Shown in pieces: positions 8,901-50,021 of a DNA stretch of 64,000 nucleotides (the stretch's first letter is position 1; every line of letters begins with the position of its first letter). The notes under the pieces were generated by a model, which ran no database searches, was not told where the DNA came from, and saw only the letters and a list, made by a program, of their open reading frames with translations. Source of the stretch: Chitinispirillaceae bacterium (GTDB lineage Bacteria; Fibrobacterota; Chitinivibrionia; Chitinivibrionales; Chitinispirillaceae); the NCBI GenBank assembly GCA_016929595.1, contig JAFGIN010000068.1:62001-126000 (forward strand). The letters run 5' to 3'. The position numbers and the translations under genes are program-made.

Positions 8901-9050
8901 GGCATGGATTCTCTGCTACTGCGTCAGTTTTCAAAGCAATTGAATAATACTTTTGGTACTGAGATATCTTTCCGCCACTTAATGCGCGAGTATTCCACCA
9001 TACAATCTCTTGCAGCATTCATCGATTCTGAAGAGAAGAGGATGTATTAA
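5964..9050 (+). CDS. type I polyketide synthase, KS-AT-ACP
   Basis: 1028 residues from the ATG at 5964, which overlaps the previous stop; an earlier in-frame start at 5937 would enter the upstream carrier gene. Residues ~12-33 are a coiled N-terminal docking helix (LLRRAFSKIEELEQLLKDK). The KS runs from ~36 to ~460 with the nucleophile in DTACSSSL (Cys210) and the two His in EAHGSGTPLG (His345) and NIGHCAAAAG (His384). The AT at ~558-860 has FPGQGTQYPDMG and GHSIGEF (Ser654). HAFHS at 750-754 is the malonyl-type specificity motif. The ACP near the C-terminus has LGMDSLL (Ser983). There is no room for KR, DH or ER, so the module should leave a beta-keto group. It would extend the chain handed over by the methyltransferase-ACP with one malonyl unit and pass it to the NRPS 52 bases downstream. 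Confidence 0.93.
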   Translation: MPNDTPDTTDTTLLRRAFSKIEELEQLLKDKSWNEPIAVVGIGCKFPGSVNDPESFWKLLINGTDAICPVPVDRLKIKDFQRSLKDPDTSGIYVDCGGFLSEDVSGFDAQFFGISEREAKALDPQQRLLLETAWEALEHAGQNPDELAGTETGVFLGLASNDYEKLIGNQRNISEFNVYYLTGNAFSTASGRLSYFLGLNGPGLTIDTACSSSLTAVHYACQSIWQKECTTALAGGVNLVLSFEDLLSYCSASMISPSGRCKSFDSSADGFILSEGCGIVVLKRLSDALEHNDRIYSVIRSSSVNQDGASNGLTAPNSLAQAILIRQALKKAHLQASDIHYIEAHGSGTPLGDPIEVQALASVFGKREAANPLHIGCVKSNIGHCAAAAGIAGLIKTILSVYHGKIPQNLHFSNPNPLVPWDEITARIPSDNLEWLSENGIRRAGVSSFGLSGTNAHVILESAPSNEVSGSSREWQMLPLSAKTKTALNIMAENLASWIGRNPATPLADIAFTLQTGRKHAPFRSCIVCKNSSDFRNTLNQISQTSVNLQPFSGQPSKIIFVFPGQGTQYPDMGSSLYKTEPVFRDVFDRCADAFKKYIDEDLRSIIFGNITECNKNKLKNTLYAQPAIFSMEYSLACLWLSWGVRPAALVGHSIGEFAAARLSGILSFDDAVFLVARRSHLLNTLSPGTMISVRSSEEAVFPMMSPELSIAAINSPKLCVISGPSEAVNAFQLRCDTVNIPHQPLHTSHAFHSAMVEPVLHLFQEEVSAISFLKPGIPIISTVTGTSLSDYDARDPLYWTRHMRLTVRFSEAVRSVMYQFPEGIFLEVGPRSTCTSLIQQHFNGQIHNTAVSSMSSNGEPDADLQQLMTATGHLWIHGVPLDSNSFYKNEKRIRIPLPSYPFERKSYWFNKTGSQHQVYYNQYRDEPVSVPVTPCEKHTTDDVLCTKSKTAEKIRDLAATALGCSAESIGDTISFLHLGMDSLLLRQFSKQLNNTFGTEISFRHLMREYSTIQSLAAFIDSEEKRMY

Positions 9051-9102
9051 TAGTCGATAATCAGTCATTAAATTTCATTGAAATAGGTGTTGGGAAAAAT
9101 TT

Positions 9103-12100: not shown

Positions 12101-15100
12101 ATTCGCTGATTGCTGTGCAGATATTTTCAAGAGTGCGTAACGTTTTCGGTATGGAATTTTCGTTTCAAGATATCTTTTCATATCCTACCATTTCCAGTCT
12201 TGCATCCAGAATAGAAACAAAAACGCGAACAGAAGTTACAGATAAAATCACAACATCTGAATTGACTCGTGTTGACCGCAGTGGGTATTTACCCATGTCA
12301 CAAGCACAAAAGAGGCTCTGGTTTCTGCATCAGATAAACCCTGATAGTCCGGCCTACAACCTTGTACAAGCCATCAGGATTAAAGGAAATGTTGATATCG
12401 TATTATTACAAAGAGCTGTCGACAATCTGGTTATCAGGCAGGAATCCCTGCAAATGGTGTTCAGAAGCAATGATGGTCAACCTGTTATTTCACTTAACCC
12501 GGAAACGAAAATCCGCATTATAAATGTTACCGGTGAAATAACTGGTTATTCAATGGACGTTGAGTCAATAAATGATTATATAAAAATCGAAGTTCTTAAA
12601 CCTTTTGATATCGAACACGGTCCATTGACTAAAGTATTTCTTTTCTCGATATCTCCTTCAGAATTTATCAGTGTATTTCTTATTCATCATATCATTACCG
12701 ATGGATGGTCATCAGGAGTTTTAATTAAAGATCTGTTTCGGTTGTATTCGAATGAGCTGCCTGGAAACTCAACAGTTCTTTCCGATTTACATTTTCAATA
12801 CATTGATTTTATTATCTATCAACACCAGGAACATGACCGGAAGAAATCAGATGCGCAAAGGGAATACTGGTTGAAAACACTTGGTGGTGATCTTCCTGTA
12901 TTGCAAATGCCATTTGATTTCAGAAGACCTGAAAAGCTTTCGCAAAAGGGTTCTGAATTAAGGTTTGTAATACCCAAAAACATCACAGCTGAGCTATCAT
13001 ATTTAAGCCAGAAGAATGGTGTTACGATGTTCATGACACTTTTATCTGGTTTTGCAGTACTTCTGAACAGATATACACAACAGGAGGATATTATCATCGG
13101 GGTACCTGTTGCTAACCGACAACATGTAGCATCCGAGGACATTATTGGTTTTTTTGTAAATACCCTTGCATTGCGGTTGAATGTTGATATTTCTACCAGT
13201 TTCGAAAATTTGTTACGACATGTTCATCAGGTTACCATAAATGCAATTCGCAACCAGGATGTTCAGTTCGATGAACTTGTCAGGATTCTTAAAATACACA
13301 GGGATTCGAGATACAACCCTGTCTTCCAGACTATGTTTGCCTATCAGAATTATCCAGTGCCAGAAGTCAAAAATGAGTACATTTCCTTTAAATCTGAATG
13401 GATTGCACGTGGCGCAACTCAATTTGATTTTTCTTTCTTCCTGTGGGAAGATTGTGATGAAATACATGGAGTCATTGAATACAGTATCGAATTATTTACT
13501 CATGTTACCATTTCGCAAATGGCCTCGCAGTACATTACTCTGCTTTCCACTATCTGCAATGATTCAAAAGCACCTTCAGGCAGTTACAAAATAATATCTC
13601 CGGAAGATGAATGCAGGATCATCTCCAGCTGGAATGCGACGGAAAAACCCTATACCCAAACAATGTGCATCCATGAACAAATCAGTAAACAAGCACAGAA
13701 AATGCCCTATGCCACTGCAGTTGTGGCAAATGGTCAATCACTTACATACAAAGATCTTGACGAGCAATCCAACATACTTGCGCGGTTATTGCAAAATCGC
13801 GGAGTAAAAGCAGAAGTCCCGGTTGGAATCTGTCTTGAACGGACAACCGGAATGGTCGTTGCATTACTGGCAGTTCTTAAAGCGGGCGGTTTTTATGTTC
13901 CACTTGATCCTTATTACCCATCAGAACGCCTAAAACTAATGATTGAAGATGCATCCATTGACACTGTACTTTCTGATACGTCTACTTCTAAAGTTTTACC
14001 CGAAGGAATTTCAAATGTAATAATAATTGATACTATAGATATAAAAGATTTAGATAACTGCCCTGTACCTACCTTAAGCACTCCAGATAATGCAGCATAT
14101 ATGATTTACACTTCAGGCTCCACTGGTAAGCCAAAAGGTGTTGTCATTGCACACAAATCTCTCGTTAATTTCGCCAGAAGCATGGTTAAAAATCCCGGAA
14201 TCGATTCTCATGATATTATTCTGGCAATAACCACTATTTCTTTTGACATTTCAATACTGGAGCTTTTAGTTCCTCTTACTACTGGAGCTCAGGTTGTTGT
14301 TGTCTCAAGGGATATCGCAATGGACGGTACAGCATTGTCGCACTGTATTCAAAACTCTGCCATTACTTTTATGCAGGCAACACCAGGCACCTGGCGTCTT
14401 CTTTTATCCTGTGGATGGTCTGGTAAATCTGACTTGACATTACTGTGCGGTGGTGAACCTTTTCCTGAGGACCTTCTATTTGAACTTATTACAAAAGTTA
14501 AAAGTGTCTGGAATATGTATGGCCCAACAGAAACGACTATCTGGTCCACGCTCTGCAAGTTACACGATACCGATACAGTTATCAGCATTGGCAAACCAAT
14601 TGACAACACTCAAATATATATTCTCGATAAATTTCTGAATCCCTTACCACCTAAAGTACCCGGTGAACTCTTCATTGGTGGACATGGTGTTGCCAGAGGA
14701 TATTTTAACAGACCAGATTTAACTGATCAGAAGTTCATTGCCGATCCTTTTTCAGCTATAGAAAACGCGAAAATGTTTGCTACCGGTGACCTTGCACGAT
14801 GGCTTGACAATGAAACTATTGAATGTTTTGGCAGAATCGATTCACAGGTTAAAATCCGGGGTCACCGGATTGAACTTGGTGAAATCGAGTCAACTACAAA
14901 AAAAATCCCTGGCATTTTCAACGCTGTCGCAACGGTTTTAAACCTTTCGGATACCGATAGCAGGCTACTTCTGTACTATGTAGCTGAAAAAAATAATTCT
15001 GTATCTGCTTCAGATATTCGAAAATATCTTCAGCAGTATTTACCAGAATATATGGTTCCGCAGCATCTTCTGAAGATTGATTCCATACCACTTACACCAA

Positions 15101-18072
15101 GTGGAAAAACCGACAGAAAACAGTTACCAGTGCCAACATTTCATAGTAATGAAAAATTCACACCACCTTCAACTAATACACAGAAAGATCTCATCGAAAT
15201 ATGGCAGAAAGTATTAGGAATAAGCCGAATCGGAATTGACGATAACTTTTTTGATATCGGCGGTCATTCGCTGATTGCAGTTCAGATTTTTAATGAAATT
15301 TTCAGAAAATTTAATCTACGCCTTCCTCTGGCAGCTCTGATCGAGCACAGCACAGTTCGGGATTTTTCATTGTACTTACAAAAACATATTGACAATAGGG
15401 ATTCGATTACTGACAAAACAGTAACATTCAGTAAAACAGAAACTCCAGAATATCAATATCCTGCACTGTCTGCTGAAACGCTTTCAGATCAGCCGATCCA
15501 TGGCCTGAAGCTCGGCTACGACAGCCAGGGCCGGCCAGCATGGTTTGTTCCTGAGAAAGACCAGTTGCAAACGTTTATTTCACTTAATGGTGATGGTCTA
15601 TCAGTAAAAATGCCATGTACACCACCACCTCAGAAAGTACTTTTTTCAACTCCAGCTCAGAAGGAGCTCCTGGCTCATGCTTGTGCAGATGAACAGGCAA
15701 CAACCACTCTCAATGAAACCATCTCCATCCATCTCAATGAACAGATAGATCACACAGCCCTCGATTCTGCGATTCAGGGGCTTGCGATTATTCATGAAAT
15801 CCTGCGTAGCCATTTTACTGCCAATGGCTCTGAAATAATTATCGAACCGGAAATTGATCTGCATGTAACCAGACACAAAATAGAAGTTTTATCAGGTATT
15901 GACATAAGAGACAAAGTCGCAGTATATGAACGAGAGATGGCGGGGAAACGCTTCGATCCATGCAAAGGGCCCCTTATCGATGTAACCCTTCTTGACAGCG
16001 AAAAAAAAGAAGTGTGTATTATTATCATTGGAGTGCATGCGGCTATTATTGACAGGTGGTCCCTGTACCTGCTTGGACATGATCTGGTAAGATTGTATTC
16101 AAGTTTCGCAGCGCTCACATCACCATGCATCCTGCCCTCACATGGATTCAGCGATTATCTAATGTACCGCACAACAACTGCATACGCTGCAGATTATCAG
16201 AAATTTCTCTATTACTGGCACAGCCGGCTCGGCCTCCCGCCTTTACCAAACCCTGTCCCATCAATTTTTGATTCCAGATCACAGGATTTATTGGCGCATG
16301 CACAACATTCATATACTTCAACAGAAGAACTCACTGGAGAGCAGCTTATAAAAATCAAGGATTATGCCTGTAAACATAATGTCTCTCTTTTTTCGGTTCT
16401 TCTGGCGGCTTTTGCAGTAAGTTTGAAAAATCTTTCCGGTTCAGAGGACATCATTACAGGGGTCACGTTTGCTGGTCAACTTTTTTCTGCAATGGCTGAA
16501 ACTGCCGGAAGAATGGCTAAAGTACTTCCCATGCGGATGCGTGTGGAATCCGGATTTGATTTTACAGACCTCTGCCGTATCTGCCATAATCTTATCCTGA
16601 ATGCCAGTAGTTATACCACCGCAGGAATCGAAGAAATTTCAAAAGAGATGGGACTTACACAATTAAAAGTACAATCCCTTATGGAAACACGGCTGACCTT
16701 TTTCAATACATTCCGGGATAAAGCAGGTAGTTTCAAACCATTGTACCATTATCAGCCATGCAGGGATACCAGCGCAAGGCTGGAACTTTTTATTATGGAA
16801 ACTCCGGTATCTCTTGAGTTCACCGTCTGCGGCAGCACCGATTTTACAAGTCAGGAATGGAACAATTCATTTGTTAAAGAACTGATTCACCTTATTGTTG
16901 CCAATTGTCTATCAAATGAAAATATCTTCACATCGAACCCTGAAAGAACGCAGCCTGAAGATGAAGATGAACGATTCATTACCGGTCTCTGGAGGGAAAT
17001 CTTTAACTTACAGGATGCTTGTATGAAATCCTCCTTTTATGCGTATGGTGGTGATTCAATCTCTGCTGTCAAATTGCTGGATGCGCTGTCCGCTCACTAC
17101 AACATTAAACTGCCAATGTCGCTCCTTTCGGAATACTGCACTATCCGTACATTAGCCCGCTATCTGCGTAAAGAAACAAGTACTGTAAAAAATGAACCTG
17201 AAAAGGATACCTTCCAGACAGGTTCCTCATTCGGAAAACAAGCATGGAATACTGTTGTAACATTTCGAAGAACGGGAACATTACCACCATTCTTTCTGGT
17301 TTCCGGTATTGGCGGCAATCCGATGATATTTCTGAATTTATCCAGATTACTCGAAAAAAACCGGCCATTTTACGCACTGCAATACCGTGGGGTTGATGGA
17401 ATCTTACACCCCCATACAAAAGTAGAGGATATCGCTGCAGAATTCTTAGCCGACATGCAACGCGTTCAGCCCGATGGTCCCTACTTCATTGGAGGATATT
17501 CTTTCGGCGGACTTGTTGCATATGAGATGATTCAGCAGCTGGAGAAGAAAGGCCAAAAAGCTGGTGGCCTGATCTTAATCGACACGGTCATTCCTCAAAG
17601 ACTCAACTGGCTACAGAATAAAAATATCCAAAAAAAAATGAAAAATCTCCTGAAATCGCTTATTCTTAACATTCGAAATAATTTTACACAGGCGAGCAAT
17701 TCCAGCCATCAGTTACAGAACGACTTGACAGCCCAGGAGGTCTTCAAAAAACGATTTGATCTGGTTGGAAAATGTAATTCATTGGCTGGAACCCGCTATA
17801 AACTACACCCGGTCAAATCAAACATTTTTTATATCAAAAGTGCCATTCCAACATCGCTACACATCTCAAATAGAAAGACAATCGAATTTCGGCAGATGAA
17901 TGACTGGTATAATGTAATTCCTTCAGAACGCATTACCATTCGCACTATCAATACAAATCACTTCGACCTTTTAAATGAACCACTAGTTACTGAGACCGCA
18001 AAGTGTATCACTGAAGGATTACTTTTCTTAGATCAAAGATATAATGTTTCTCTGTATGGGGAAAAATTATAA
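9103..18072 (+). CDS. nonribosomal peptide synthetase, C-A-PCP-C-A-PCP-C*-PCP-TE
   Basis: 2989 residues. C1 (1-440) has VHHIVCDGWS (His135, His136) and is of the kind found after PKS modules (AYNES near the N-terminus). A1 (~463-945) has YTSGSTGKPKG and NMYGPTETTIW; PCP1 has GGHSL, Ser1001. C2 (~1062-1500) has IHHIITDGWS (His1195, His1196). A2 (~1520-2005) is followed by PCP2 with Ser2056. Eye alignment to GrsA gives the pocket D-I-L-Q-L-G-M-I-W-K for both A domains, close to the glycine code. A linker with GLKLGYDSQGRPAWFV starts at 2134. The next domain, C*, has VHAAIIDRWS: the second His is Ala2313 and the usual Gly is Arg2318. C* has no A domain and leads to PCP3 (GGDSI, Ser2652) and a type I thioesterase (GGYSFGG, Ser2800). 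The predicted product is a beta-keto-acyl-Gly-Gly chain released by the TE. Whether PCP3 is loaded or bypassed is open. Confidence 0.93.
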   Translation: MDEIPVTGLLQEIWISSMQSTEASCAYNESFTIQLHGNSDHRRLEKAVLQVVARHDALSAAFSNDGTIMRKKIATPGALPIHDLRKSNTINNDHFLKDLVYQESSTPFDLEAGPLWRAHLIIQSDESMALLFTVHHIVCDGWSLNILVHEIGKAYDNVFTGQSTTFERPASFFDYVKDSAEARYGDQLKISTEFWKKRLEGPLPVLDLPTDYTRPPRRTYRAKCKRFLLDPLIVHQIKNKAADYGCNLFSFLLGAYTVLIYKLTGNDNIVTGIPVAGQCFYKNSNLVGHCVSMLPFRTIIDPDKTFGRFAEMIQDELIDAYDHHFLSYGDILKELRLPRDPSRIPLVNTGFTYAKMPSSGEFGFQDLTAECIVNNRLFEIFELYVTVIDSKSELELLWHFNSDLFSETAVERWIEEYQVLLRGIADNTQATLSALQVLPDTERSVLLERWNATDRQLNPDKTVISMFEQQVTLTPEAIALEFRGHSLTYKQLNDKADQITAYLQSIGASPDQPIGFCLERSFDMVISLLGILKSGAAYIPIDPSFPDDRITYILQDSQAQIFITTPEIAKRFPDLIIPIINPAEVPVIQDNKTIHTVSGSHCAYIIYTSGSTGKPKGVEIRHFSLSNFLTAMRETPGMNRNDTLLAVTTISFDIAGLELLCPLTCGARVILAEKELSSDPVHLGAFISSRKPSIMQATPATWTMLLDSGWIEAGWMKILCGGEAMTRTLADRLLSTGAEVWNMYGPTETTIWSSVWKVIPGEDAPPVGKPIANTQFYILDSRLSPVPTGASGELYISGIGLARGYCNRPELTSEKFISSPFSRHLHSGLENRMYKTGDIARWRNDGTAEVLGRSDFQVKIRGYRIETGEIESVLAHHPSVKECVVTDGNDNNKNKILIAYIVFHKGAETTFDNLRTTLRISLPEYMVPSRFVQLQSLPRLTNKKFDRSSLSLPSGEQAVNQSEIVLPSSHTEEIILSIWKEVLGSGTISVNDNFFDIGGHSLIAVQIFSRVRNVFGMEFSFQDIFSYPTISSLASRIETKTRTEVTDKITTSELTRVDRSGYLPMSQAQKRLWFLHQINPDSPAYNLVQAIRIKGNVDIVLLQRAVDNLVIRQESLQMVFRSNDGQPVISLNPETKIRIINVTGEITGYSMDVESINDYIKIEVLKPFDIEHGPLTKVFLFSISPSEFISVFLIHHIITDGWSSGVLIKDLFRLYSNELPGNSTVLSDLHFQYIDFIIYQHQEHDRKKSDAQREYWLKTLGGDLPVLQMPFDFRRPEKLSQKGSELRFVIPKNITAELSYLSQKNGVTMFMTLLSGFAVLLNRYTQQEDIIIGVPVANRQHVASEDIIGFFVNTLALRLNVDISTSFENLLRHVHQVTINAIRNQDVQFDELVRILKIHRDSRYNPVFQTMFAYQNYPVPEVKNEYISFKSEWIARGATQFDFSFFLWEDCDEIHGVIEYSIELFTHVTISQMASQYITLLSTICNDSKAPSGSYKIISPEDECRIISSWNATEKPYTQTMCIHEQISKQAQKMPYATAVVANGQSLTYKDLDEQSNILARLLQNRGVKAEVPVGICLERTTGMVVALLAVLKAGGFYVPLDPYYPSERLKLMIEDASIDTVLSDTSTSKVLPEGISNVIIIDTIDIKDLDNCPVPTLSTPDNAAYMIYTSGSTGKPKGVVIAHKSLVNFARSMVKNPGIDSHDIILAITTISFDISILELLVPLTTGAQVVVVSRDIAMDGTALSHCIQNSAITFMQATPGTWRLLLSCGWSGKSDLTLLCGGEPFPEDLLFELITKVKSVWNMYGPTETTIWSTLCKLHDTDTVISIGKPIDNTQIYILDKFLNPLPPKVPGELFIGGHGVARGYFNRPDLTDQKFIADPFSAIENAKMFATGDLARWLDNETIECFGRIDSQVKIRGHRIELGEIESTTKKIPGIFNAVATVLNLSDTDSRLLLYYVAEKNNSVSASDIRKYLQQYLPEYMVPQHLLKIDSIPLTPSGKTDRKQLPVPTFHSNEKFTPPSTNTQKDLIEIWQKVLGISRIGIDDNFFDIGGHSLIAVQIFNEIFRKFNLRLPLAALIEHSTVRDFSLYLQKHIDNRDSITDKTVTFSKTETPEYQYPALSAETLSDQPIHGLKLGYDSQGRPAWFVPEKDQLQTFISLNGDGLSVKMPCTPPPQKVLFSTPAQKELLAHACADEQATTTLNETISIHLNEQIDHTALDSAIQGLAIIHEILRSHFTANGSEIIIEPEIDLHVTRHKIEVLSGIDIRDKVAVYEREMAGKRFDPCKGPLIDVTLLDSEKKEVCIIIIGVHAAIIDRWSLYLLGHDLVRLYSSFAALTSPCILPSHGFSDYLMYRTTTAYAADYQKFLYYWHSRLGLPPLPNPVPSIFDSRSQDLLAHAQHSYTSTEELTGEQLIKIKDYACKHNVSLFSVLLAAFAVSLKNLSGSEDIITGVTFAGQLFSAMAETAGRMAKVLPMRMRVESGFDFTDLCRICHNLILNASSYTTAGIEEISKEMGLTQLKVQSLMETRLTFFNTFRDKAGSFKPLYHYQPCRDTSARLELFIMETPVSLEFTVCGSTDFTSQEWNNSFVKELIHLIVANCLSNENIFTSNPERTQPEDEDERFITGLWREIFNLQDACMKSSFYAYGGDSISAVKLLDALSAHYNIKLPMSLLSEYCTIRTLARYLRKETSTVKNEPEKDTFQTGSSFGKQAWNTVVTFRRTGTLPPFFLVSGIGGNPMIFLNLSRLLEKNRPFYALQYRGVDGILHPHTKVEDIAAEFLADMQRVQPDGPYFIGGYSFGGLVAYEMIQQLEKKGQKAGGLILIDTVIPQRLNWLQNKNIQKKMKNLLKSLILNIRNNFTQASNSSHQLQNDLTAQEVFKKRFDLVGKCNSLAGTRYKLHPVKSNIFYIKSAIPTSLHISNRKTIEFRQMNDWYNVIPSERITIRTINTNHFDLLNEPLVTETAKCITEGLLFLDQRYNVSLYGEKL

Positions 18073-18875: not shown

Positions 18876-20087
18876 ATGCTGGAACACGGTTCTTACAACA
18901 TTGAAAATTTTTCTGTTAATAAAACTAAAGAACTAAATCGCTTAAATTCGCAAGTCGATCTTTTCTGGGAACAGGAACATCTGTTATACAAGCGTCTTGG
19001 ACTCCGTGATGGGATGGCAGTTTTAGATTGCGGGTGCGGATCAGGGTATCTGCTGGAAAAGATGCACGCTCGTTACCCCTCAATGGTTTGCACAGGAATT
19101 GAGATTTCCGATTTTTTATTTACCGCTGCCTCAAATGCAATTCTTTCCGGAAATCTTACCCGGTGCCGGGTGCATAAACAATCGATACTGAATCTCGATC
19201 TGCCCGACAACACCTTCGATTTTGTGATAGTACGGCTGGTTCTCGAACATCTTCAGGATCCCCTTGTCGCGATGCGCGAAGTTCGAAGAGTTCTCAAAGC
19301 GGGTGGACGTGCCGTTTTTATTGACAATGATTTCGATTTCCATGTCAGGACATATCCCGAAATTTTTGAACTCTCTCAGCTATACGATGCGTACTGTACT
19401 GCAAGGAGCCGTGATGGCGGCAACCCCCGCATCGGTAGACAATTACCACAGCTGCTATCACAAACACACTTTACCGATATCTCTTTTGATGTCGTTGCTG
19501 CAAATAATACCATTATCGGGGATCATGCTTTTCACCTGTCCGAAGGTTCCGGTATTGCACTGCAGCTGCTCCATGACGGCTACTTAACAAGCGAAGTCTA
19601 CGACCGTCTGGCCCTCCGCTGGACAGAGATGCTTCAGACAAAGGGCCACTCCATGATAAGGCTTCTTTTTGCTGGAAGCGGTGTAAAACCCGATTCAACT
19701 CCACCAGAGAATACAGAACATTCAGAAAATCGTCTTTTTAGTGCTAGCCCCAGCAAAGAAACTATGTCTACAGCCCTAAGCAGTTACAAAAAATCAACGA
19801 AAGGTTTTATAGCTAACGTTCCAACAACAATTGCTGAGATCCTGGGGATCGCACCGGAAACAGTGCTACCGGGGCAGCCTCTTGGTGAACTGGGGTTAGA
19901 CTCAGTAGGTTCTGTAATGTTGAAAAACCATATTGAAAATGAGCTCGCTGTTTCTGCTCCGCCAATAGAGTATTTTTATAACCATTCAATAAACGATATT
20001 ATTACATTTGTTAAAAATACCCTGACCTCACCAGCAGAGGCAGGAGCAAATAATAAAGAGAAATGTTTTGAAGAGGGACTGCTTTGA
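18876..20087 (+). CDS. SAM methyltransferase - acyl carrier protein fusion, line 2
   Basis: 403 residues, clearly paralogous to the opening gene of line 1 along its whole length. Shared features include the GSY start, VDLFW, LDCGCGSGYLLEKM as SAM motif I, RLVLEH, RVLKAGGRAVFIDNDFDFHV and GGNPRIGRQLP. The carrier domain has LGLDSVGS, with Ser343 as attachment site. The C-terminal tail (NNKEKCFEEGLL) is short and acidic and differs from the line 1 tail. This fits a different docking partner: the next protein starts with a TubC-type docking domain. A purine-rich ribosome site (AAGAGGGCAGAGAG) precedes the ATG. The stop codon overlaps the TTG start of the next gene. With an FkbH domain in the next protein, an O-methylation of a glycerate-type unit, as FkbG does in methoxymalonyl-ACP pathways, is a reasonable guess, not shown. 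Confidence 0.9.
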   Translation: MLEHGSYNIENFSVNKTKELNRLNSQVDLFWEQEHLLYKRLGLRDGMAVLDCGCGSGYLLEKMHARYPSMVCTGIEISDFLFTAASNAILSGNLTRCRVHKQSILNLDLPDNTFDFVIVRLVLEHLQDPLVAMREVRRVLKAGGRAVFIDNDFDFHVRTYPEIFELSQLYDAYCTARSRDGGNPRIGRQLPQLLSQTHFTDISFDVVAANNTIIGDHAFHLSEGSGIALQLLHDGYLTSEVYDRLALRWTEMLQTKGHSMIRLLFAGSGVKPDSTPPENTEHSENRLFSASPSKETMSTALSSYKKSTKGFIANVPTTIAEILGIAPETVLPGQPLGELGLDSVGSVMLKNHIENELAVSAPPIEYFYNHSINDIITFVKNTLTSPAEAGANNKEKCFEEGLL

Positions 20088-23000
20088 GCCTTAAGAACCT
20101 GATTTTCAGCATTGCAAAGAAAAAAATTCTCTTAATGGAGGATAGTTGCACTCTCCGTTTCAACGCTCCAGCAGGTGCAATGGATAATACGGTCAGATCA
20201 TTGGTAAAAAAATACCGGGATTCTGTAATAAATCTTATCCGTCCATATAGTTCACGATGGTCGCTGATAGCCCCTGCATCATTAAATCAGGAATCGCTGG
20301 TTTTTGTTCAAAAACTTGCATCGCCAGCATCGGCATACCACGTAGCGCTGAGCTTTCGTCTCTGTACCAGCCTTAACAAAAAAGTTTTTTTATCAGCATG
20401 TAAAATTCTATTAATAAAGCATTCACAATTGCGGGCGTCGTTTCGAACTATCATCGGTAATGAGCAGAATGAAACTCTTTCATGCCAGATAATAAGTGAC
20501 CCTGGAGAAATACCAGTGCTTTTTGATGACCGTGAAAATTCAGATTCACAGTCACAAACAGTGCTTGCAAACGATTACAACCGTGAATTTGACATTGAAA
20601 ACGGGCCTCTGGTACGCTGGCTGGTAGTCAATGCCTCTTCAGATTCACCGGTCGTACTCATGACCATGCACCATGCAGTTACCGATGCATGGTCGATAAG
20701 AATTCTTTTCAGAGAATTGCTTTCAATCTACAACAGTTTGCAAACCGGCGTATCTCCGACCGCAACCGTAGATCCGATCTATTCATATATCGATTTTACA
20801 TTGAACCAACATAATTTATTAACAGGTGACAAATTCTGCAAACAGATCGATGCATACGGCAGAATAGTGAAACCCTGTCTGACACCACTTTCATTCACCA
20901 CAGACTTTAAGCGTTCAACTTTTACCGATCTTAAGGGAAGTACACTTCCATTTACAATTTCTGCAGATATGTACAGTAAAATAGTATCAGTTGCAAGACA
21001 GAACGCTATTTCAGTCAATGCTATGCTGTTTTCCTCCTTTGCACTTTTTCTCTATGAGGAAACAGGACAGACATATTTTGTTTCCGGCATGCCTTTTGCA
21101 AATCGTTCCAATCCCTCGTTCACAAACACCGCAGGATACATCGTCAATACAGTAGCAATACCAGTAACCATTGCTTCCGACAGTACCTGTTCTGAACTTA
21201 TGCAAACAGTAAATACGACAATTTCAAGGTCAGCTGATTTCCAGGAGATACCGTTCCCGGCACTGGTCGCACATATCAATCCATCGCGTGATATGGAATA
21301 CAGCCCGGTCTTTCAGGTCCTCTTCAATTACATCTCCCGTTCGCTCATCGGTAATGCCGGTGATTTTATTTATGATGGTAATCCGGATGATACCCGTACA
21401 GTTGAAGGATTCGATATCAAACCGTTTCCTGTTAAGCAACAGGAGGGACAGTATGACCTCACCCTTGAAATTATCGAACGGAACGGGTATGCTTCAGGGC
21501 AATTTAAATACTCTACTGCGTTATTTACATCGGACAGCGCACATCGTATGTTGCAACACTATCTGCTCACACTCAACAGGTTGATCGATAATCCATCCGG
21601 TAACGTTTCAGAAAAGAAAGTTGTGGAACGGCCCCGAAAAAAGCAACTCGCCATTGCAGCGACATTCACTGCAGACCTGCTTGCGGAGAGTTTTGACTTC
21701 TGGATCAACCGTCTCGATCTTGAATACGAACCGGTTTTTACCCCGTATGGTCAGGTTCTTCAGCAACTCATCGATCAGTCTTCGGTGTTCAATACCAATA
21801 GCGACGGCTGCAATGTCATTCTTCTTCGTCTTGATGACATGAACTACAACAGAACAGGTGACAAGACACTAGAGAAAATTTTGACGGATCGTTGCGATGA
21901 GATCCTTGCAGCTCTTTCAACTACAGCATCTTCTTCAAAAGCGATTTTCCTCATCTTCTTCTGCCCCTCGGCACCAGATCTTACATCAGATGCCGCGACA
22001 AAAGCGTCCATTGACGGTATACAAGCCAGGTATGCGAAACAGTTCAATGATCTTCCGGGGGTTTATGCTACGGGATCCGATACAATACTTTCATGGTATC
22101 CTGTAATGCACTACCATGATCGACTGCGTCTGGAAAATGGTCACATACCCTATACTGATGAATTTCATATTGTAATTGCAACAGCGATAATACGCCGACT
22201 GTTCATCCTGAAACAGAAACCGGTAAAAGTCATTTCTGTTGACTGTGACAATACACTCTGGAGCGGTATCGCTGCAGAGGACGGACCTGGACAAATCATT
22301 GTTTCTGATAATCACCGGAAATTCCACGAATTCCTCTCTAGTCAAAAAGATACAGGAAGACTGCTGACACTGGTAAGTAAAAATCGAAAAGATGATGTAG
22401 ATGCCGTTTTTTCTGAAAATGAATCGATGCAGCTCTCCCCGTTATTGATCTACTCTAAGAGAATCAACTGGGAACCCAAATCGCAAAACATCTCCTCGCT
22501 GGCAGATGAGATCAACGTTGGACTTGACAGTTTCCTTTTCATCGATGATAATCCTTCCGAATGTGCTGAAGTATCCAGCGTTCATCCAGAGGTAATCACC
22601 ATCCAGTTTCCCGCTGAGGTATCGAAAATTCCCCCATTTATAAATAGTTTGTGGATGCTTGACTCGCCAAAATCCACAGCGGAGGACTATAACCGCCTGA
22701 AATATTATCAAATTGAAAAGCTGCGCAATCTGATGCGTTCCCAAACTCAATCGTTTGCAGAATTTCTCGACCAACTCGAGCTTACAGTTACATTTGAGGA
22801 TTTTAACGAACAAAACGGTGAAAGGCTCTCGCAGCTTACCTATCGGACAAACCAGTTTAACTTCTCGGGTACCAGGTTATCGTATACGGAGCTCTGCCGA
22901 TTGCAGCATAAAGGATATGATATCCACGCAGTATCGGTTAAAGACCGATTTGGTGATTATGGGATTGCAGGGATGACCATGTGTCGTACCGAAGATGATA

Positions 23001-23812
23001 CCGCCAGCGTTGAACAATTTCTTCTGTCGTGCAGAGTGTTAGGACGTGGTGTCGAGCATCAGATCCTGAACACACTGGTACAATACGCACTCGGAAAAAA
23101 TGCACGCACACTTCGTCTGCAGTACAAAATTACAGGCAGGAACCGTCCTGCAATGGACTTTATAGAAAAAATTCTCGTGCAGTGTCCTTCTGCCCGAAAT
23201 GAAAACTGCCTTATACTTGAACAGCTGGCAGATGTTCCCCGATTCTCTCCGGTAATGGCCGAAGATAAATCGAATGCTTCTCACATATCACCAACAGCAT
23301 CTGTTGCTGATTCATCTATACAGGATCGCGGGTACGAAGATCTGTTGTTGCGCAATCGCCACTATTACGATATTGTCGAAAATCTTTCTTCGCTCAGCGA
23401 GATTCGTGCAGCAATCGAACACTATGATACTAAAAAAAGTTCTCCTCTTGAAACATTTCCCGATTGCACATCAGAAACATCCCCGCTAGAATCATCAATT
23501 GCAGAAATATGGAAAAACACTTTACGTACAGGCACAATCAGTTTGAGCACTAATTTCTTTGACCATGGCGGAACATCCCTTCAATTACCACAAATACTAT
23601 CTGAACTTGAGAAGCAATTAGGTGTCAATCTTCCACTTGTTGATCTGTTTAAATACACGACAGTTAAGAAGCTGGCGGCTTATATTCAAAGTAAAATGAA
23701 TGCTGCCAGTGATACGAAAATAAATTCACCACTCACAACGAACCGGCGATTGATCGGTGCACAGATGATGCGGCAGCGGCAGCAGCAGTCCCGCTCCAGA
23801 TTAAACGCGTAG
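20084..23812 (+). CDS. NRPS protein: TubC-type docking - C - FkbH - PCP
   Basis: 1242 residues. The start is TTG at 20084, overlapping the previous TGA as TTGA and preceded by AAGAGGGA, so translation is coupled. Residues ~1-57 look like the TubC N-terminal docking domain (AKKKILLMEDSCTLRFNAP, then a helix). The C domain (~60-500) has MHHAVTDAWS, with His196/His197 intact and Ala in place of Gly. From ~530 a FkbH-like region begins; VISVDCDNTLWSG (Asp720, Asp722) is the HAD-IIIC signature, followed by LVSKN, FIDDNPSEC and TYRTNQFNFSGTR. The PCP has HGGTSL (Ser1165). Known FkbH domains take D-1,3-bisphosphoglycerate and load a glyceryl unit on a carrier protein. A C domain directly before FkbH suggests that an incoming acyl group is joined to the glyceryl hydroxyl as an ester, as I recall for the vioprolide system. 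No A domain is present. The domain order is well supported, the chemistry is inferred. Confidence 0.9.
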   Translation: MSLKNLIFSIAKKKILLMEDSCTLRFNAPAGAMDNTVRSLVKKYRDSVINLIRPYSSRWSLIAPASLNQESLVFVQKLASPASAYHVALSFRLCTSLNKKVFLSACKILLIKHSQLRASFRTIIGNEQNETLSCQIISDPGEIPVLFDDRENSDSQSQTVLANDYNREFDIENGPLVRWLVVNASSDSPVVLMTMHHAVTDAWSIRILFRELLSIYNSLQTGVSPTATVDPIYSYIDFTLNQHNLLTGDKFCKQIDAYGRIVKPCLTPLSFTTDFKRSTFTDLKGSTLPFTISADMYSKIVSVARQNAISVNAMLFSSFALFLYEETGQTYFVSGMPFANRSNPSFTNTAGYIVNTVAIPVTIASDSTCSELMQTVNTTISRSADFQEIPFPALVAHINPSRDMEYSPVFQVLFNYISRSLIGNAGDFIYDGNPDDTRTVEGFDIKPFPVKQQEGQYDLTLEIIERNGYASGQFKYSTALFTSDSAHRMLQHYLLTLNRLIDNPSGNVSEKKVVERPRKKQLAIAATFTADLLAESFDFWINRLDLEYEPVFTPYGQVLQQLIDQSSVFNTNSDGCNVILLRLDDMNYNRTGDKTLEKILTDRCDEILAALSTTASSSKAIFLIFFCPSAPDLTSDAATKASIDGIQARYAKQFNDLPGVYATGSDTILSWYPVMHYHDRLRLENGHIPYTDEFHIVIATAIIRRLFILKQKPVKVISVDCDNTLWSGIAAEDGPGQIIVSDNHRKFHEFLSSQKDTGRLLTLVSKNRKDDVDAVFSENESMQLSPLLIYSKRINWEPKSQNISSLADEINVGLDSFLFIDDNPSECAEVSSVHPEVITIQFPAEVSKIPPFINSLWMLDSPKSTAEDYNRLKYYQIEKLRNLMRSQTQSFAEFLDQLELTVTFEDFNEQNGERLSQLTYRTNQFNFSGTRLSYTELCRLQHKGYDIHAVSVKDRFGDYGIAGMTMCRTEDDTASVEQFLLSCRVLGRGVEHQILNTLVQYALGKNARTLRLQYKITGRNRPAMDFIEKILVQCPSARNENCLILEQLADVPRFSPVMAEDKSNASHISPTASVADSSIQDRGYEDLLLRNRHYYDIVENLSSLSEIRAAIEHYDTKKSSPLETFPDCTSETSPLESSIAEIWKNTLRTGTISLSTNFFDHGGTSLQLPQILSELEKQLGVNLPLVDLFKYTTVKKLAAYIQSKMNAASDTKINSPLTTNRRLIGAQMMRQRQQQSRSRLNA

Positions 23813-23833
23813 GATTACAGAGGGCCTTTGATA

Positions 23834-26800
23834 ATGAATACTATGACCGATGATCAGATTTCCCAGAGTGTTGCAATAATTGGTATGTCCGGAAGATTCC
23901 CGGGAGCAGAGTCAATTTCAGAATTCTGGCAAAATCTCCTTGATGAAACCTGTTCACTGGAAATGTTACGTGATGATGCACTGAGAGCATCAGGTGTTCC
24001 TGATGAGATTATCTGCAGTCCCCGATGTATCAAACGTGCCGGAGTGCTTCACAACAGCGACATGTTCGATGCACCATTTTTCACGTACAGCCGCCGCGAG
24101 GCTGAACTTATTGATCCTCAGCAGCGCCTCTTCCTTGAATGCGCATGGGAAGCATTTGAAGACGCCGGCTACACACCAGAATCGGCCAGGGGATCGGTTG
24201 GTGTCTTTGGTGGCGCCGGCATGAATTACTATTTCATCAAAAATATTCTCTCCCGACATAAAAGGTTTGAAGAGATCGTTGATTTTCTCACCTTTATCGG
24301 AAGCGAGAAGGATTACCTGTGTAGCAGGGTTTCCTATAAGTTAGGACTTACAGGACCCAGCTTCTCCATAAATTCAGCCTGCTCCACATCTCTCGTAGCG
24401 ATCCAGGTAGGCTACCAGTCGTTGCTTACCGGCCAATGCGATTACGCTCTGTGCGGAGGTGTATCACTGCAATCCCCCCGTGACCGGGCATCACTTTACA
24501 ATGAAGGAGAAATTTTCTCTCCTCAGGGAATCTGCAGAACATTTGACAAAAAGGCAGATGGCATTGTTTTTGGCGAAGGTGTCGGTATTGTGATGCTGAA
24601 ACGTACTGAAGATGCTCTACGGGACAGAGATCATATCTATGCGGTCATCAGAAGCGCAGTTGTCAATAATGACGGATCTGCAAAAAGCGGTTACACGGCA
24701 CCCGGTTTCGAGAGTCAATCAGACCTGATCGCACTGGCACAGGAAGTTGCCGGAGTGCTCCCCGATGAGATCGCATTCATTGAGGCACATGGTACCGCAA
24801 CAAGGCTGGGTGATGCCATCGAAGTGGGGGCTTTGACAAAAGCGTTCAGAAGACACTCCAACCGTAAGCGATTCTGCGCTTTGGGATCGGTCAAAACCAA
24901 TATTGGACACCTCGACACGGCAGCAGGCGTTACCGGACTTATCAAAACCGCACTCGCACTCAAAAACCGGGTACTTCCTGCATCGATTAACTTCATAGAA
25001 GAAAACCCTGAACTTGAACTTGAAAACAGTCCCTTCTATGTTGCAAAAGAAAAGGTTCTCTGGGAAAACTATGATGTACCCCTTATCGCTGGCCTCAGCT
25101 CTTTCGGTATGGGAGGTACCAATGCACATGCAATTTTGCAGGAACCCCCGGCACGTCAGCTGTCGATTAAATCCAGAAGGTTTTACCTTATACCATTTTC
25201 AGCACATTCGGAAAACGCACTCAGCCGGACACGGGAACGTCTACAACACTATTTAATGCAGAACGATAACCTTCCGATACAGGATGTGGCATTTACACTT
25301 CAGACAGGAAGATATGCCTTCGAGGCCCGCAACTTTGCCGTCTGCTCCGCAACCGCAGAACTCATTTCCATACTTGGGAACACTGCGACAGCAGCCCAAA
25401 AAAGCCCCGCAACCCTGTCATCGCAACCGGTCATATTTGCATTTTCGGGACAGGGTGCCCAGTACCCTGGTATGGGGCGTCAGCTATACAACTCAGAAAA
25501 GATAGTGCGTGACCTGCTCGACCAGGCACGTACGATAATGCAATCCGAAACAGGAGAGGATCTGTTCAGTTTCCTTTTCCCGTCAGATACGGAATCAGTT
25601 ACTGCCGCGCAAACACTTTCCAGTACAGTTTATACACAACCGGCACTTTTTGCACTTGAATACGCAATAGCCCGACTGTTCATCTCCTTTGGAATCAAAC
25701 CTGCAGCCTGTATTGGTCACAGCATTGGTGAATATACCGCAGCTGCAATCGCAGGTGTATTTACCTTCGAGCAGGGAATGAGAATCGTACTCCAGCGTGG
25801 TAAAATCATGGACGCGATGCAGAGAGGTTCAATGGCATTTGTCACACTGACCGAAAAAGAGCTGCAGTCCCATATCAGTGGTAACCTCGTCATCGCATTA
25901 GTTAATGCACCATCATCGTGTGTCGTCGCCGGTCCCACAGATGAAGTTTCCTCATTTATTGAAACAATGAAGAGAAACAGCGTCAGATGCGGCCTTCTGC
26001 AGACATCCCATGCGTTTCATTCTCCAATGATGGATGAAGCTGCGGGGCAGTTTAAAGAGTATCTCGATAGTGTTACCCTGTCAAAACCGACTATGCCATT
26101 CATATCCAATGTAACTGGTACCTGGATTACCAGTGATCAATGTACCAGCAGCAGATATTGGGCAGATCATCTGCGTAAAACAATTCGATTCTCCGATGGG
26201 ATAGCTGAATTACTGAACAAAAATTACCGCCTGTTTCTTGAGATCGGTCCGGGCAGTACCCTTTCCACACTTATAAGTATGCACACGTCAGAAACCGACA
26301 AGGTTAACACCGTGCAGTCGCTCCATCACAGTAAGCAGAAGGCTGATGATGAAGCATTTTTTACCAGTGCGATTGGTGAACTCTGGAGTGCCAGGGTCAC
26401 TATTGACTGGTCAGGGTTCTATCCCCTTGATCTCCCTAATAAGGTGCCGTTACCAACCTACCCGTTCGAACGTCAACGGTATTGGATTGAATACTGCAAT
26501 CCCGGACACGTAACAGCCTCTGAAACGGTTACTTCAGATAATGCGGTTGATCCGCAATCCACAGATCATGCACAAATAGAAACAGTGCAGATGGCAGATC
26601 TTACATCACGCGAATCACTTTTTAGCTTAGTTACTGATGCCTGGCGTGAAGTTCTGCGAATCGATCAGTGCGGCCCGGATGAAAGCTTTGTGGTTCTGGG
26701 TGGAAATTCTCTGATGCTCTCACAGGTTGTTTCACGTATCAATCAGCGATTGCCCTATATTCTTCATATGTCATTTCTGATGGGTAGTTACACCATTAAC

Positions 26801-29800
26801 GAACAGGTTGAGCGCCTGCTTGAATTCGGCAGATCAAATCCCGGAACAACCACTCAAACTGTTAACGAACCGGTACCACATGCCGAAAAGGAAACGCTCT
26901 CACCGGCCCAGCAGCGCCTCTGGTATCTCTGTCAACTTAACCAGCATACTCCGGCATTCAATCTGACACATACATTCCGCCTGCGTGGTCGGCTCGACGT
27001 TATGCGTCTTGAAGAGGCTGTGAGGACTGTTGCACAGCGGCACCCCTCACTGCGTTCTACATTCTCTCATATCAACGGTGTTCCTGTTGTGCGGGTGATC
27101 GAAAACATTCCCCTCTCTCTTTCAATCACCGAATGCATCGGTTCATCGGGAGATGAGAGCGAAAAGGCCGCTGCTGATCATATCCGTAAAGAGGCAGCAA
27201 TCCTCTACGATCTCGAGCGGGGCCCACTCTTCAAATGTGGACTGTACCACGTCGCTGCAGAAGAGTATATCTTTGTGTTCTATATTCACCATATCATCTC
27301 CGATGGATGGTCGATGGCAATCATACTCAAAGAGCTTTCCGCACTCTATAATACCCCTCAGGGACAGCATGATTCCGTTCTTGAAAAAATAAAAATCAAC
27401 TATTTCGATTATGCGGCGTACATGAACCACCTTGAAGAAGGCCCGATTCATCAGGAAGACACTGCGTTCTGGAAAGAGTATTTCAAGGATGGTTTACCGA
27501 TATTATCGCTTCCAACCGACTTTCCGCGTCCAAAAACGCTGAAATTTACAGCAAAACTACTGACCTTTACACTTCCTCCGGAACTGATGCGCAAGATAAC
27601 TGCCTATGCTGGAGCTAAGAAAGTTACTCCATTTTCCATTCTCCTGGCTATGTATGGTCTTCTTCTTCACCGTAACGCCCGGCAGGAGAGGATCATTATC
27701 GGTTGTCCTATCGCAGGGAGAAACCGTGTCGAATTCGAACCGCTTATCGGTCTGTTTCTCAATATGATTCCATTCAACCTTGAGTTTAAATCTGATATGT
27801 CCGTTGAAGAGCTCACGCTTGCAACCTACCGGAACACTGTGGATGTCTTTGCACACCAGAATCTTCAGTTTGGAAAACTTGTTGAACTTCTTCAACCGGA
27901 GCGTCACCTCAACATCAATCACGTATTTCAAACCATGTTCGCGTATAATAACTACCTCTTCAGTGATAACACCCCCGGAGAGGTCATCTTTGAACCGGAA
28001 AAATCCGACCGGGGATCATCCGAATATGACCTATCTCTTTACATGTGGTCATCAGATGATACTCTGCATGGCGCATTTGAATATAATGATGAACTTTTTC
28101 TTCCATCAACAGTTAAAGGACTACGCTCACAGTTTCAGACACTACTGGAAGCAGCCCTCGAAGATCCGTTACTCCCGATTGTTAAAGCTCCTGTATATTC
28201 AATCCATCAGATTACAACGCTGCTTGAACAAAAATTTTCATCTGCCTGTGCCACACCCGAACAGGAAACGGTACATGCACTGCTCGATCGATCGTTTCTT
28301 GAAAACAAACAGGCGGTCGCAATTACAGATGGTAGCAACTCCTTTCGATATGATGATCTTTACGAACGTTCCAATCAGGTGTGTAATGGTCTCAGGCAGG
28401 CTGGAGTGGAACATGGAACACTTGTTGGTATCCACATGTCACGTTCAATAAACCTGCTGCCGGTAATGGTGGGGATTCTCAAAGCAGGTGCAGCCTACAT
28501 TCCGCTCGATCCGCTCTTCCCTGCTGAACGTATCGATTACATGATTGAAAATGCAGCTTTACAGTTCCTTATTACCGAAATCCCGAATGGTAAACGTTTT
28601 ACAGGTAATCAGACAGTCCGCGTTTTTACCTGTGATGATCAGCGCAACGATTTCAGTAGCCAGAGTACTACACTAGACCAACATTATGGAGATGGTGAAA
28701 GCCTTGCGTACATTCTTTATACCTCCGGATCGACCGGTGCCCCCAAAGGGGTCGAAATCCAGCATAAATCATTGGTCAATTTCCTTCATTCAATGAAAAA
28801 GTCTCCCGGCATACAACGGGATGACCGGCTTCTTGCTGTTACCACCATCTCATTTGACATTTCAGGGCTCGAACTGCTGCTTCCGCTGACAGCCGGAGCA
28901 TCCATAACCCTTGTTGACAGCATGGTTGCAGCTGATGGATTCGAACTTAAAAAGCGAATTGAATCTTCAGGTACGACAATAATGCAGGCAACCCCTGCCA
29001 CCTGGCGAATGCTTCTTGAGGCCGGCTGGCAGAACGGTACCGGCTTTAAAATACTTTGCGGTGGTGAAGCAATGTCGCGGGATCTTGCCGACAGACTGCT
29101 TGCAACCGGTGCTGAAGTGTGGAACATGTATGGACCGACTGAGACTACAATCTGGTCATCGATCAGCAGGGTTATCCCCGGAGAAACGGAACCGAATATC
29201 GGAGTACCAATTGATAACACACAGTTCTTTTTCCTGGATGATGCCCTTCAGGAGGTACCCCGGGGAATTATCGCAGAACTCTGTATTGCAGGAACCGGGC
29301 TTGCCAGAGGATACCATAAAAACACAGATCTTACAGAAAAGAAATTTGTTACTATCAGTATTGGTGGAAAAATCATTCGTGTTTACCGAACCGGTGATCT
29401 GGTTCGTACAAAGGCTGATGGAACCATTGAATTTCTGGGACGCACTGATCAGCAGGTAAAAATTCGCGGATACCGTATTGAACTTGAAGAGATCGAAAGC
29501 GTGTTAAACAGACATGTATCGGTACAACAGGCAGTTGTCTCCACCTACACAACTGCGGGTGGAAAGGAACTGGTTGCTTATATCAGGCTTAACGATGGGT
29601 CAGCACTTAATACATCATCTCTCCGCGAACACCTGGGAGTATACCTCCCCCACTACATGATACCAGCTGCAGTTGTTGAGATCAATACATTTCCTTTGAC
29701 TCCTAACGGTAAGGTTGATAGAAAAAAATTACCGGCGCCACAGTCTGATTCAATAATCAGCACCGCTTCGGCATCCGGTCAGAAAGCCCAGGATAAATTC

Positions 29801-30340
29801 GAGGAAGAGCTGATAAGGATCTGGGAAAAGTTCATCGGTAAAAAAGTCAACACAATCGATGACAACTATTTCGAACTCGGCGGACATTCGCTTCTTGCGG
29901 TTCAGATATTCAATGAACTTCATAAAGAGTTTGACATCCGCCTTCCTCTGGCTGTACTCATAGAACACCCCACGATACGCACCTTTTCCGCATACCTTCG
30001 CAATATACTCAATATTCCCGAATTTGCCGGAGAACCTGAAAGCGACAATTCAGAAGATAGTGCAATCAAAACACCAGTAAAAGGACTTAAAGCCGGTTAC
30101 AACAAGCAGGGACGGCCAATCTGGTTTGTAAAAGATCTGCACATTCTGGACAAATACGAACCACTTATTAAAGATACCGAGATTCCCGAAGACCCATTTA
30201 CCATTCAAAAGAAGAGTGTCACAACCACCCCGGCTCAGCAGGAGATCTTTAATGTATACAAGCTGATGCTAACGCAACCATTGCATATAATGAAGCGATT
30301 GCAATCCGGTTTACCGGTCCCATTGATGAAAGTGCGATGA
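23834..30340 (+). CDS. hybrid PKS/NRPS, KS-AT-ACP-C-A-PCP-C* (C* broken by frame change)
   Basis: 2168 codons from the ATG at 23834 (a TTG at 23828 is in frame but sits too near the AGAGGG ribosome site). The KS has INSACSTSL (Cys183), EAHGTATRLG and NIGHLDTAAG. The AT has SGQGAQYPGMG, GHSIGEY (Ser630) and the malonyl-type HAFHS. The ACP has LGGNSL (Ser959). No reductive domains. The C domain has IHHIISDGWS (His1152). The A domain has YTSGSTGAPKG and by eye the glycine-like pocket D-I-L-Q-L-G-M-I-W-K. The PCP has GGHSL (Ser2019). GLKAGYNKQGRPIWFV at 2084 is the same linker as in line 1. After TTPAQQEIFNVY (to base 30259) similarity to the line 1 C* stops in this frame and continues in the -1 frame, so the last ~27 residues here are out of register. 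The gene ends at a TGA that overlaps the ATG of the next gene (ATGA). Confidence 0.92.
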   Translation: MNTMTDDQISQSVAIIGMSGRFPGAESISEFWQNLLDETCSLEMLRDDALRASGVPDEIICSPRCIKRAGVLHNSDMFDAPFFTYSRREAELIDPQQRLFLECAWEAFEDAGYTPESARGSVGVFGGAGMNYYFIKNILSRHKRFEEIVDFLTFIGSEKDYLCSRVSYKLGLTGPSFSINSACSTSLVAIQVGYQSLLTGQCDYALCGGVSLQSPRDRASLYNEGEIFSPQGICRTFDKKADGIVFGEGVGIVMLKRTEDALRDRDHIYAVIRSAVVNNDGSAKSGYTAPGFESQSDLIALAQEVAGVLPDEIAFIEAHGTATRLGDAIEVGALTKAFRRHSNRKRFCALGSVKTNIGHLDTAAGVTGLIKTALALKNRVLPASINFIEENPELELENSPFYVAKEKVLWENYDVPLIAGLSSFGMGGTNAHAILQEPPARQLSIKSRRFYLIPFSAHSENALSRTRERLQHYLMQNDNLPIQDVAFTLQTGRYAFEARNFAVCSATAELISILGNTATAAQKSPATLSSQPVIFAFSGQGAQYPGMGRQLYNSEKIVRDLLDQARTIMQSETGEDLFSFLFPSDTESVTAAQTLSSTVYTQPALFALEYAIARLFISFGIKPAACIGHSIGEYTAAAIAGVFTFEQGMRIVLQRGKIMDAMQRGSMAFVTLTEKELQSHISGNLVIALVNAPSSCVVAGPTDEVSSFIETMKRNSVRCGLLQTSHAFHSPMMDEAAGQFKEYLDSVTLSKPTMPFISNVTGTWITSDQCTSSRYWADHLRKTIRFSDGIAELLNKNYRLFLEIGPGSTLSTLISMHTSETDKVNTVQSLHHSKQKADDEAFFTSAIGELWSARVTIDWSGFYPLDLPNKVPLPTYPFERQRYWIEYCNPGHVTASETVTSDNAVDPQSTDHAQIETVQMADLTSRESLFSLVTDAWREVLRIDQCGPDESFVVLGGNSLMLSQVVSRINQRLPYILHMSFLMGSYTINEQVERLLEFGRSNPGTTTQTVNEPVPHAEKETLSPAQQRLWYLCQLNQHTPAFNLTHTFRLRGRLDVMRLEEAVRTVAQRHPSLRSTFSHINGVPVVRVIENIPLSLSITECIGSSGDESEKAAADHIRKEAAILYDLERGPLFKCGLYHVAAEEYIFVFYIHHIISDGWSMAIILKELSALYNTPQGQHDSVLEKIKINYFDYAAYMNHLEEGPIHQEDTAFWKEYFKDGLPILSLPTDFPRPKTLKFTAKLLTFTLPPELMRKITAYAGAKKVTPFSILLAMYGLLLHRNARQERIIIGCPIAGRNRVEFEPLIGLFLNMIPFNLEFKSDMSVEELTLATYRNTVDVFAHQNLQFGKLVELLQPERHLNINHVFQTMFAYNNYLFSDNTPGEVIFEPEKSDRGSSEYDLSLYMWSSDDTLHGAFEYNDELFLPSTVKGLRSQFQTLLEAALEDPLLPIVKAPVYSIHQITTLLEQKFSSACATPEQETVHALLDRSFLENKQAVAITDGSNSFRYDDLYERSNQVCNGLRQAGVEHGTLVGIHMSRSINLLPVMVGILKAGAAYIPLDPLFPAERIDYMIENAALQFLITEIPNGKRFTGNQTVRVFTCDDQRNDFSSQSTTLDQHYGDGESLAYILYTSGSTGAPKGVEIQHKSLVNFLHSMKKSPGIQRDDRLLAVTTISFDISGLELLLPLTAGASITLVDSMVAADGFELKKRIESSGTTIMQATPATWRMLLEAGWQNGTGFKILCGGEAMSRDLADRLLATGAEVWNMYGPTETTIWSSISRVIPGETEPNIGVPIDNTQFFFLDDALQEVPRGIIAELCIAGTGLARGYHKNTDLTEKKFVTISIGGKIIRVYRTGDLVRTKADGTIEFLGRTDQQVKIRGYRIELEEIESVLNRHVSVQQAVVSTYTTAGGKELVAYIRLNDGSALNTSSLREHLGVYLPHYMIPAAVVEINTFPLTPNGKVDRKKLPAPQSDSIISTASASGQKAQDKFEEELIRIWEKFIGKKVNTIDDNYFELGGHSLLAVQIFNELHKEFDIRLPLAVLIEHPTIRTFSAYLRNILNIPEFAGEPESDNSEDSAIKTPVKGLKAGYNKQGRPIWFVKDLHILDKYEPLIKDTEIPEDPFTIQKKSVTTTPAQQEIFNVYKLMLTQPLHIMKRLQSGLPVPLMKVR
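30253..30340 (+). other. -1 frame break inside C* of line 2
   Basis: The upstream frame matches the line 1 C* up to the Tyr codon at 30257-30259. From base 30259 on, the -1 frame (CAA GCT GAT GCT AAC) gives QADANATIAYNEA, which aligns without a gap to CADEQATTTLNET of line 1. One missing base near 30259 explains this. I see no classical slippery heptamer. The two frames then overlap for about 80 bases until the TGA at 30338-30340. Confidence 0.8.
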
Positions 30341-47469: not shown

Positions 47470-47471
47470 AA

Positions 47472-48698: not shown

Positions 48699-48761
48699 AA
48701 ATGCTTAATCGTTTGTACTCAGATAACAATAACGTTGTATATTCAAAATACATTTTTTTAG

Positions 48762-49970: not shown

Positions 49971-50021
49971 AAAATTAACTACGCCAATGTAACCTATTGA
50001 CTACGTAATTTGGACTCTAAT

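Follow-up and report, generated by a model that had tools for sequence, protein, structure and literature searches.

The closest described systems combine a condensation (C) domain with an FkbH-type region and join an acyl chain to a hydroxyacid. In vioprolide biosynthesis, the VioA module FAAL-ACP-C-FkbH-T makes an acyl-glycerate ester (Auerbach 2018, as described in PMC8949500). A FAAL-ACP-C-HAD-T layout is given for both vioprolide and corramycin (PMC10099666). The first two modules of the corramycin protein ComK are as in vioprolide; its glycerate ester is a proposal, as is the C-methylation of this glycerate by a radical-SAM enzyme. In the terminal module of BurF from the malleicyprol synthetase (PMC12304814), an ester-forming C domain stands beside an FkbH-type N-terminal extension, and an acyl chain is joined to a carrier-bound hydroxyacid.

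The window, i.e. the whole 64,000-nucleotide stretch of Chitinispirillaceae DNA that we analyzed, encodes a related protein (20084-23812). With VioA, it shares the C-FkbH-PCP order, the lack of an A domain and, as we infer, an acyl ester with carrier-bound glycerate. In vioprolide, the donor ACP is loaded by a FAAL and the acceptor belongs to an NRPS line. The predicted donor in the window is a methyltransferase-ACP (MT-ACP) without a ligase; it is a protein of its own, linked through a docking pair, and the next module is KS-AT. The FAAL donor and the proposed C-methylation also set ComK apart. BurF lacks the catalytic parts of FkbH, and its module is terminal with a reductase, whereas the FkbH domain in the window is complete and the module early. 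FkbH-PCP loading modules of Planktothrix (L040) and Verrucomicrobiota (L019, L070) similarly feed a starter to C-A or KS-AT, but have neither a C domain nor an MT-ACP in front. The C-FkbH-PCP module type is already known; what is new in comparison with vioprolide and corramycin is the MT-ACP donor, the polyketide continuation and the twin-line layout.

Twin assembly lines in the window

Two assembly lines lie next to each other, line A (4631-18072) and line B (18876-32646), and each starts with an MT-ACP. The features, with the domains of the 20084-23812 product given separately, are:

4631..5971, + strand: line A, paralogous MT-ACP with a helical-looking C-terminal tail
5937..9050, + strand: line A, KS-AT-ACP with a coiled-coil-like N-terminus
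9103..18072, + strand: line A, C-A-PCP-C-A-PCP-C(degenerate, VHAAIID)-PCP-TE
18876..20087, + strand: line B, MT-ACP (Pfam Methyltransf_11, PP-binding), predicted acyl donor, short linear tail NNKEKCFEEGLL; conserved together with the C-FkbH protein in genomes G017 and G167
20084..20257, + strand: TubC-type beta-hairpin docking domain, aa 1-58 (Pfam TubC_N below threshold, homologue above, model fold)
20270..21649, + strand: condensation domain, aa 63-522, HHAVTDA at aa 196-202 (Pfam, active site, trees)
21680..23188, + strand: long-form FkbH, N-terminal extension, HAD phosphatase (DCDNTLW, aa 720-726) and acyltransferase (LSCRVLGRGVE) (TIGR01686, alignment, conservation)
23498..23686, + strand: PCP domain, aa 1139-1201, HGGTSL with the Ser present (Pfam PP-binding, 53.8 bits)
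23828..30340, + strand: line B, KS-AT-PCP-C-A-PCP, predicted acyl-glyceryl acceptor; malonyl-type AT (HAFH); A code DILQLGMIWK
30253..32646, + strand: line B, C(degenerate, VHSSTVD)-PCP-TE

The AT domains of the window have the malonyl-type HAFH motif. DILQLGMIWK is the predicted ten-residue specificity code of all three A domains, and it appears to resemble a glycine code. Near 30255-30265 the reading frame shifts: the 23828 ORF loses its frame at the beginning of a C domain, the remainder of which is encoded by the 30337 ORF. In line A the corresponding domains form one protein, so the break at 30253-30340 would be either a frameshift of one base or an error in the sequence, and the 23828..30340 and 30253..32646 products were probably one protein originally. 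Each line finishes with an A-less C-PCP-TE whose C domain has lost the catalytic histidine (VHAAIID in line A, VHSSTVD in line B), a parallel degenerate end. Further downstream (46357-51242), a sugar-transferase region contains two alternating pairs of polysaccharide pyruvyl transferase-like proteins and 4Fe-4S ferredoxin-like proteins, the latter with a CCGCGAC start (N-termini inspected by eye).

Domains of the C-FkbH-PCP protein

The ORF at 20084-23812 is intact (+ strand, TTG start, 1242 aa); its first 4 bases coincide with the stop region of the preceding MT-ACP gene (18876-20087). Profile searches with Pfam and NCBIfam agreed with the sequence-only reading, which had described a TubC-type docking domain, an intact C domain, FkbH and PCP in one protein, and they detected no AMP-binding domain in the 1242-aa product. 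The module type, a TubC-type beta-hairpin docking domain followed by C-FkbH-PCP without an A domain, is therefore confirmed, with the C domain directly followed by FkbH and PCP as in the vioprolide-type layout.

The FkbH region has the long form (aa ~533-1030, with the N-terminal extension from about aa 533). Its match to TIGR01686 (NCBIfam, aa 714-1030) is far above the cut-off (271.1 versus 146.65 bits). Aligned with 89 further FkbH domains, it departs from four of the 92 columns conserved at ≥90%, each time conservatively, and keeps the remaining 88. The retained residues, which cover the HAD motifs, include D720, C721, D722, T724, K799, D821, D822, C983 and E991.

The evidence for the docking domain is more mixed. 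The TubC_N profile matches aa 5-51 with 19.9 bits, under the curated Pfam cut-off of 26, while the homologous docking domain of the G167 loci L034/L100 exceeds it (34.8 bits). The AlphaFold2 model of residues 3-55 shows alpha-beta-beta-alpha-alpha order (helix 3-12, strands 16-20 and 23-27, helices 35-43 and 45-55) at moderate confidence (block pLDDT 55-78). The TubC-type assignment is thus not carried by the profile score of the domain itself, and is upheld by its homologue and the modelled fold. The beta-hairpin docking fold is αββαα; it is found where a carrier meets a C domain, and its ligand is a short peptide at the C-terminus of the partner protein (PMC9113145). Inspected by eye, the MT-ACP tails of line B are short and linear (NNKEKCFEEGLL in the window, KKDSDIWE in G167), those of line A are charged and helical-looking, and the line-A KS begins with a coiled-coil-like N-terminus. 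These tail and docking types fit an arrangement in which each MT-ACP would serve its own neighbor.

The condensation domain

The C domain (aa 63-522, 224.9 bits in Pfam) was expected to be intact, and it is: HHAVTDA supplies H196, H197 and D201 of the HHxxxD motif. The two nearest homologous C domains carry HHIACDA and HHIICDA, and HH..D is kept across three diverged homologues with at most 33% identity over the region. The AlphaFold2 model of the domain is poor (mean pLDDT 51, shallow alignment), and of the modelled parts only the docking domain is usable.

In a quick tree with SH-aLRT support only, the C domains of the window, G167 and G017 form one clade (95) within a six-member group (99). 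The other three members follow a PKS KR-ACP (L014), a KS-AT (L082) and an FkbH-PCP protein (L056), positions that point to acyl or polyketide rather than aminoacyl donors. This placement supports the predictions that the MT-ACP donates the acyl group and that the KS starts from an acyl-glyceryl unit. A fuller bootstrapped tree agrees on the wider group (95/100); there, the clade of the window also takes in L012, a plasmid sequence on a long branch.

A single common origin of all C domains preceding FkbH was rejected (p-AU 0.00014), and the arrangement needs six changes on the tree. Within this set, made without VioA, the sequences indicate several independent origins of the C-FkbH partnership, and the function of VioA can therefore not be transferred through clade membership. 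Nor did we retain C-domain type as an indicator of ester formation. The sequence-only reading had held that grouping with ordinary LCL domains, with an amine acceptor upstream module, would speak against an ester. This is invalid: NaPDoS2 places VioA, SgcC5, BurF and other C domains characterized as ester-forming with the LCL type (PMC12304814).

Relatives in other genomes

About 85,000 bacterial and archaeal genomes were scanned, and the best 80 FkbH loci were taken. In 10 of these 80, a C domain directly precedes FkbH in one protein (L014, L015, L017, L029, L034, L043, L045, L047, L049, L092). One of them, from an acidobacterium (L049), has a vioprolide-like layout with an AMP-binding gene and PCP-PCP-C-FkbH-PCP-C-A. 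FkbH-PCP straight before KS-AT without a C domain is common (L019, L050, L051, L070, L077, L086). Cyanobacteria and planctomycetes commonly have FkbH-PCP-TE proteins (L005 14905-17916, L022, L024, L026-L028, L030, L031, L033, L036); the L005 gene sits in an exopolysaccharide/exosortase region. No relatives were found in the viral contigs searched, and a plasmid search with the MT-ACP gave distant methyltransferases only.

The deltaproteobacterial genome G167 (L034) has two MT-ACPs. The first precedes KS-AT-PCP-C-A-PCP-TE, and the second C-FkbH-PCP and then KS-AT-PCP-TE. The side-by-side pair of MT-ACP-started lines thus recurs in this genome (contig C124; L099, L100), where a B12-binding radical SAM protein, a possible methylase, is encoded between the two lines (L100 3224-4636). 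In G017, from the same family as the window, a single MT-ACP was found; its gene overlaps a C-domain gene where one contig ends (L101), and the end of another contig has FkbH-PCP with KS-AT-PCP-C-A-PCP after it (L145). Directly after line B, where the window has the TE, G017 encodes two hydrolases weakly similar to exosortase-A-associated hydrolases 2 and 1 (L145 8516-10135). From the gene orders in G167 and G017, with the contig join in G017 presumed, MT-ACP to C-FkbH-PCP to KS-AT appears as a conserved unit in the three genomes.

Predicted formation of an acyl-glycerate starter

Together, the domains with their intact active sites, the conserved gene order and the docking ends suggest the following route, which we consider rather probable. 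FkbH would take D-glycerate from 1,3-bisphosphoglycerate, dephosphorylate it and load glyceryl onto the PCP. The docking domain would bind the MT-ACP encoded upstream through the short tail at its C-terminus, and the C domain would transfer the MT-ACP acyl group to a hydroxyl of the PCP-bound glyceryl, giving an ester. The acyl-glyceryl thioester would pass to the KS of the next protein for malonate extension, the extended chain would be coupled to an amino acid, predicted to be glycine, and the product would be released by the terminal C-PCP-TE. We infer the glyceryl loading, the ester bond, the identity and loading of the acyl group and the reacting hydroxyl.

The sequence-only reading had proposed such an ester, with the MT-ACP as donor, the KS as acceptor and vioprolide as parallel. 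The donor and acceptor assignments gain from the gene order kept in two further genomes and from the matched docking ends, and the parallel is real (PMC8949500, citing Auerbach 2018; PMC10099666). Concerning the ester, FkbH and C are intact and the C-FkbH-PCP module, having no A domain, would provide no amine; the bond itself and the acyl group stay predicted. Weighing against the route are the sub-threshold TubC_N score, the low-confidence C model and the lack of an MT-ACP loading enzyme in the cluster, whose only adenylating enzymes are amino-acid-type A domains. When the AMP-binding genes of the genome were listed for a FAAL, the ligases were found on other contigs, and the non-NRPS candidates (C3, C86) look like acyl-CoA ligases; the one on C86 is related to an exosortase-associated family. 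The MT-ACP might be loaded by the malonyl AT in trans or by a ligase from elsewhere in the genome. The substrate of the methyltransferase was also sought by sequence and structure, and the nearest PDB matches (3mgg first) are general class I methyltransferases that indicate none.

Glyceryl-PCP might itself start the KS, with the C domain idle or only structural and the methyltransferase acting on glyceryl or elsewhere. C-less FkbH-PCP before KS-AT is indeed common, and lines A and B themselves contain degenerate C domains. We nevertheless regard this as unlikely, as catalytic residues are kept in the three diverged C homologues, unlike in the C domains that end lines A and B, and as docking domain and MT-ACP are co-conserved with the C domain.

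The C domain could also fuse two separately made chains by BurF-like ester joining (PMC12304814), with the line-A product or a cellular acyl-ACP as donor, and a twin line with its own MT-ACP does adjoin in both the window and G167. This seems quite improbable to us: line A terminates in its own TE, the docking ends point to the adjacent MT-ACP, and in G017 the C-domain gene overlaps that of the one MT-ACP found in the genome. That FkbH loads another acid (e.g. lactyl or another phosphorylated hydroxyacid), so that the ester acceptor is not glycerate, we consider very improbable, as every catalytic-motif position of the family is kept and the characterized NRPS FkbH domains load glyceryl (PMC8949500; PMC10099666), even though substrate choice cannot be read from these alignments.

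A doubtful extension of the acyl-glycerate route is that the MT-ACP is an undescribed ligase-free starter for twin lines, with one methylated acyl group passed to a KS (C-C bond, line A) or a C domain (glycerate ester, line B). The KS would then extend O-acyl-glycerate, and a furan-3-one-type ring could close by attack of the newly formed active methylene on the ester carbonyl.

Implications

The repeated assembly of C with FkbH means that an ester-forming C domain before FkbH is not recognizable by membership in one clade. When a C domain esterifies carrier-bound glycerate, an assembly-line product gains an internal ester, a route that is proven but rare. A predicted MT-ACP donor and a polyketide module after it, kept together in more than one group of bacteria, point to an uncharacterized product family.
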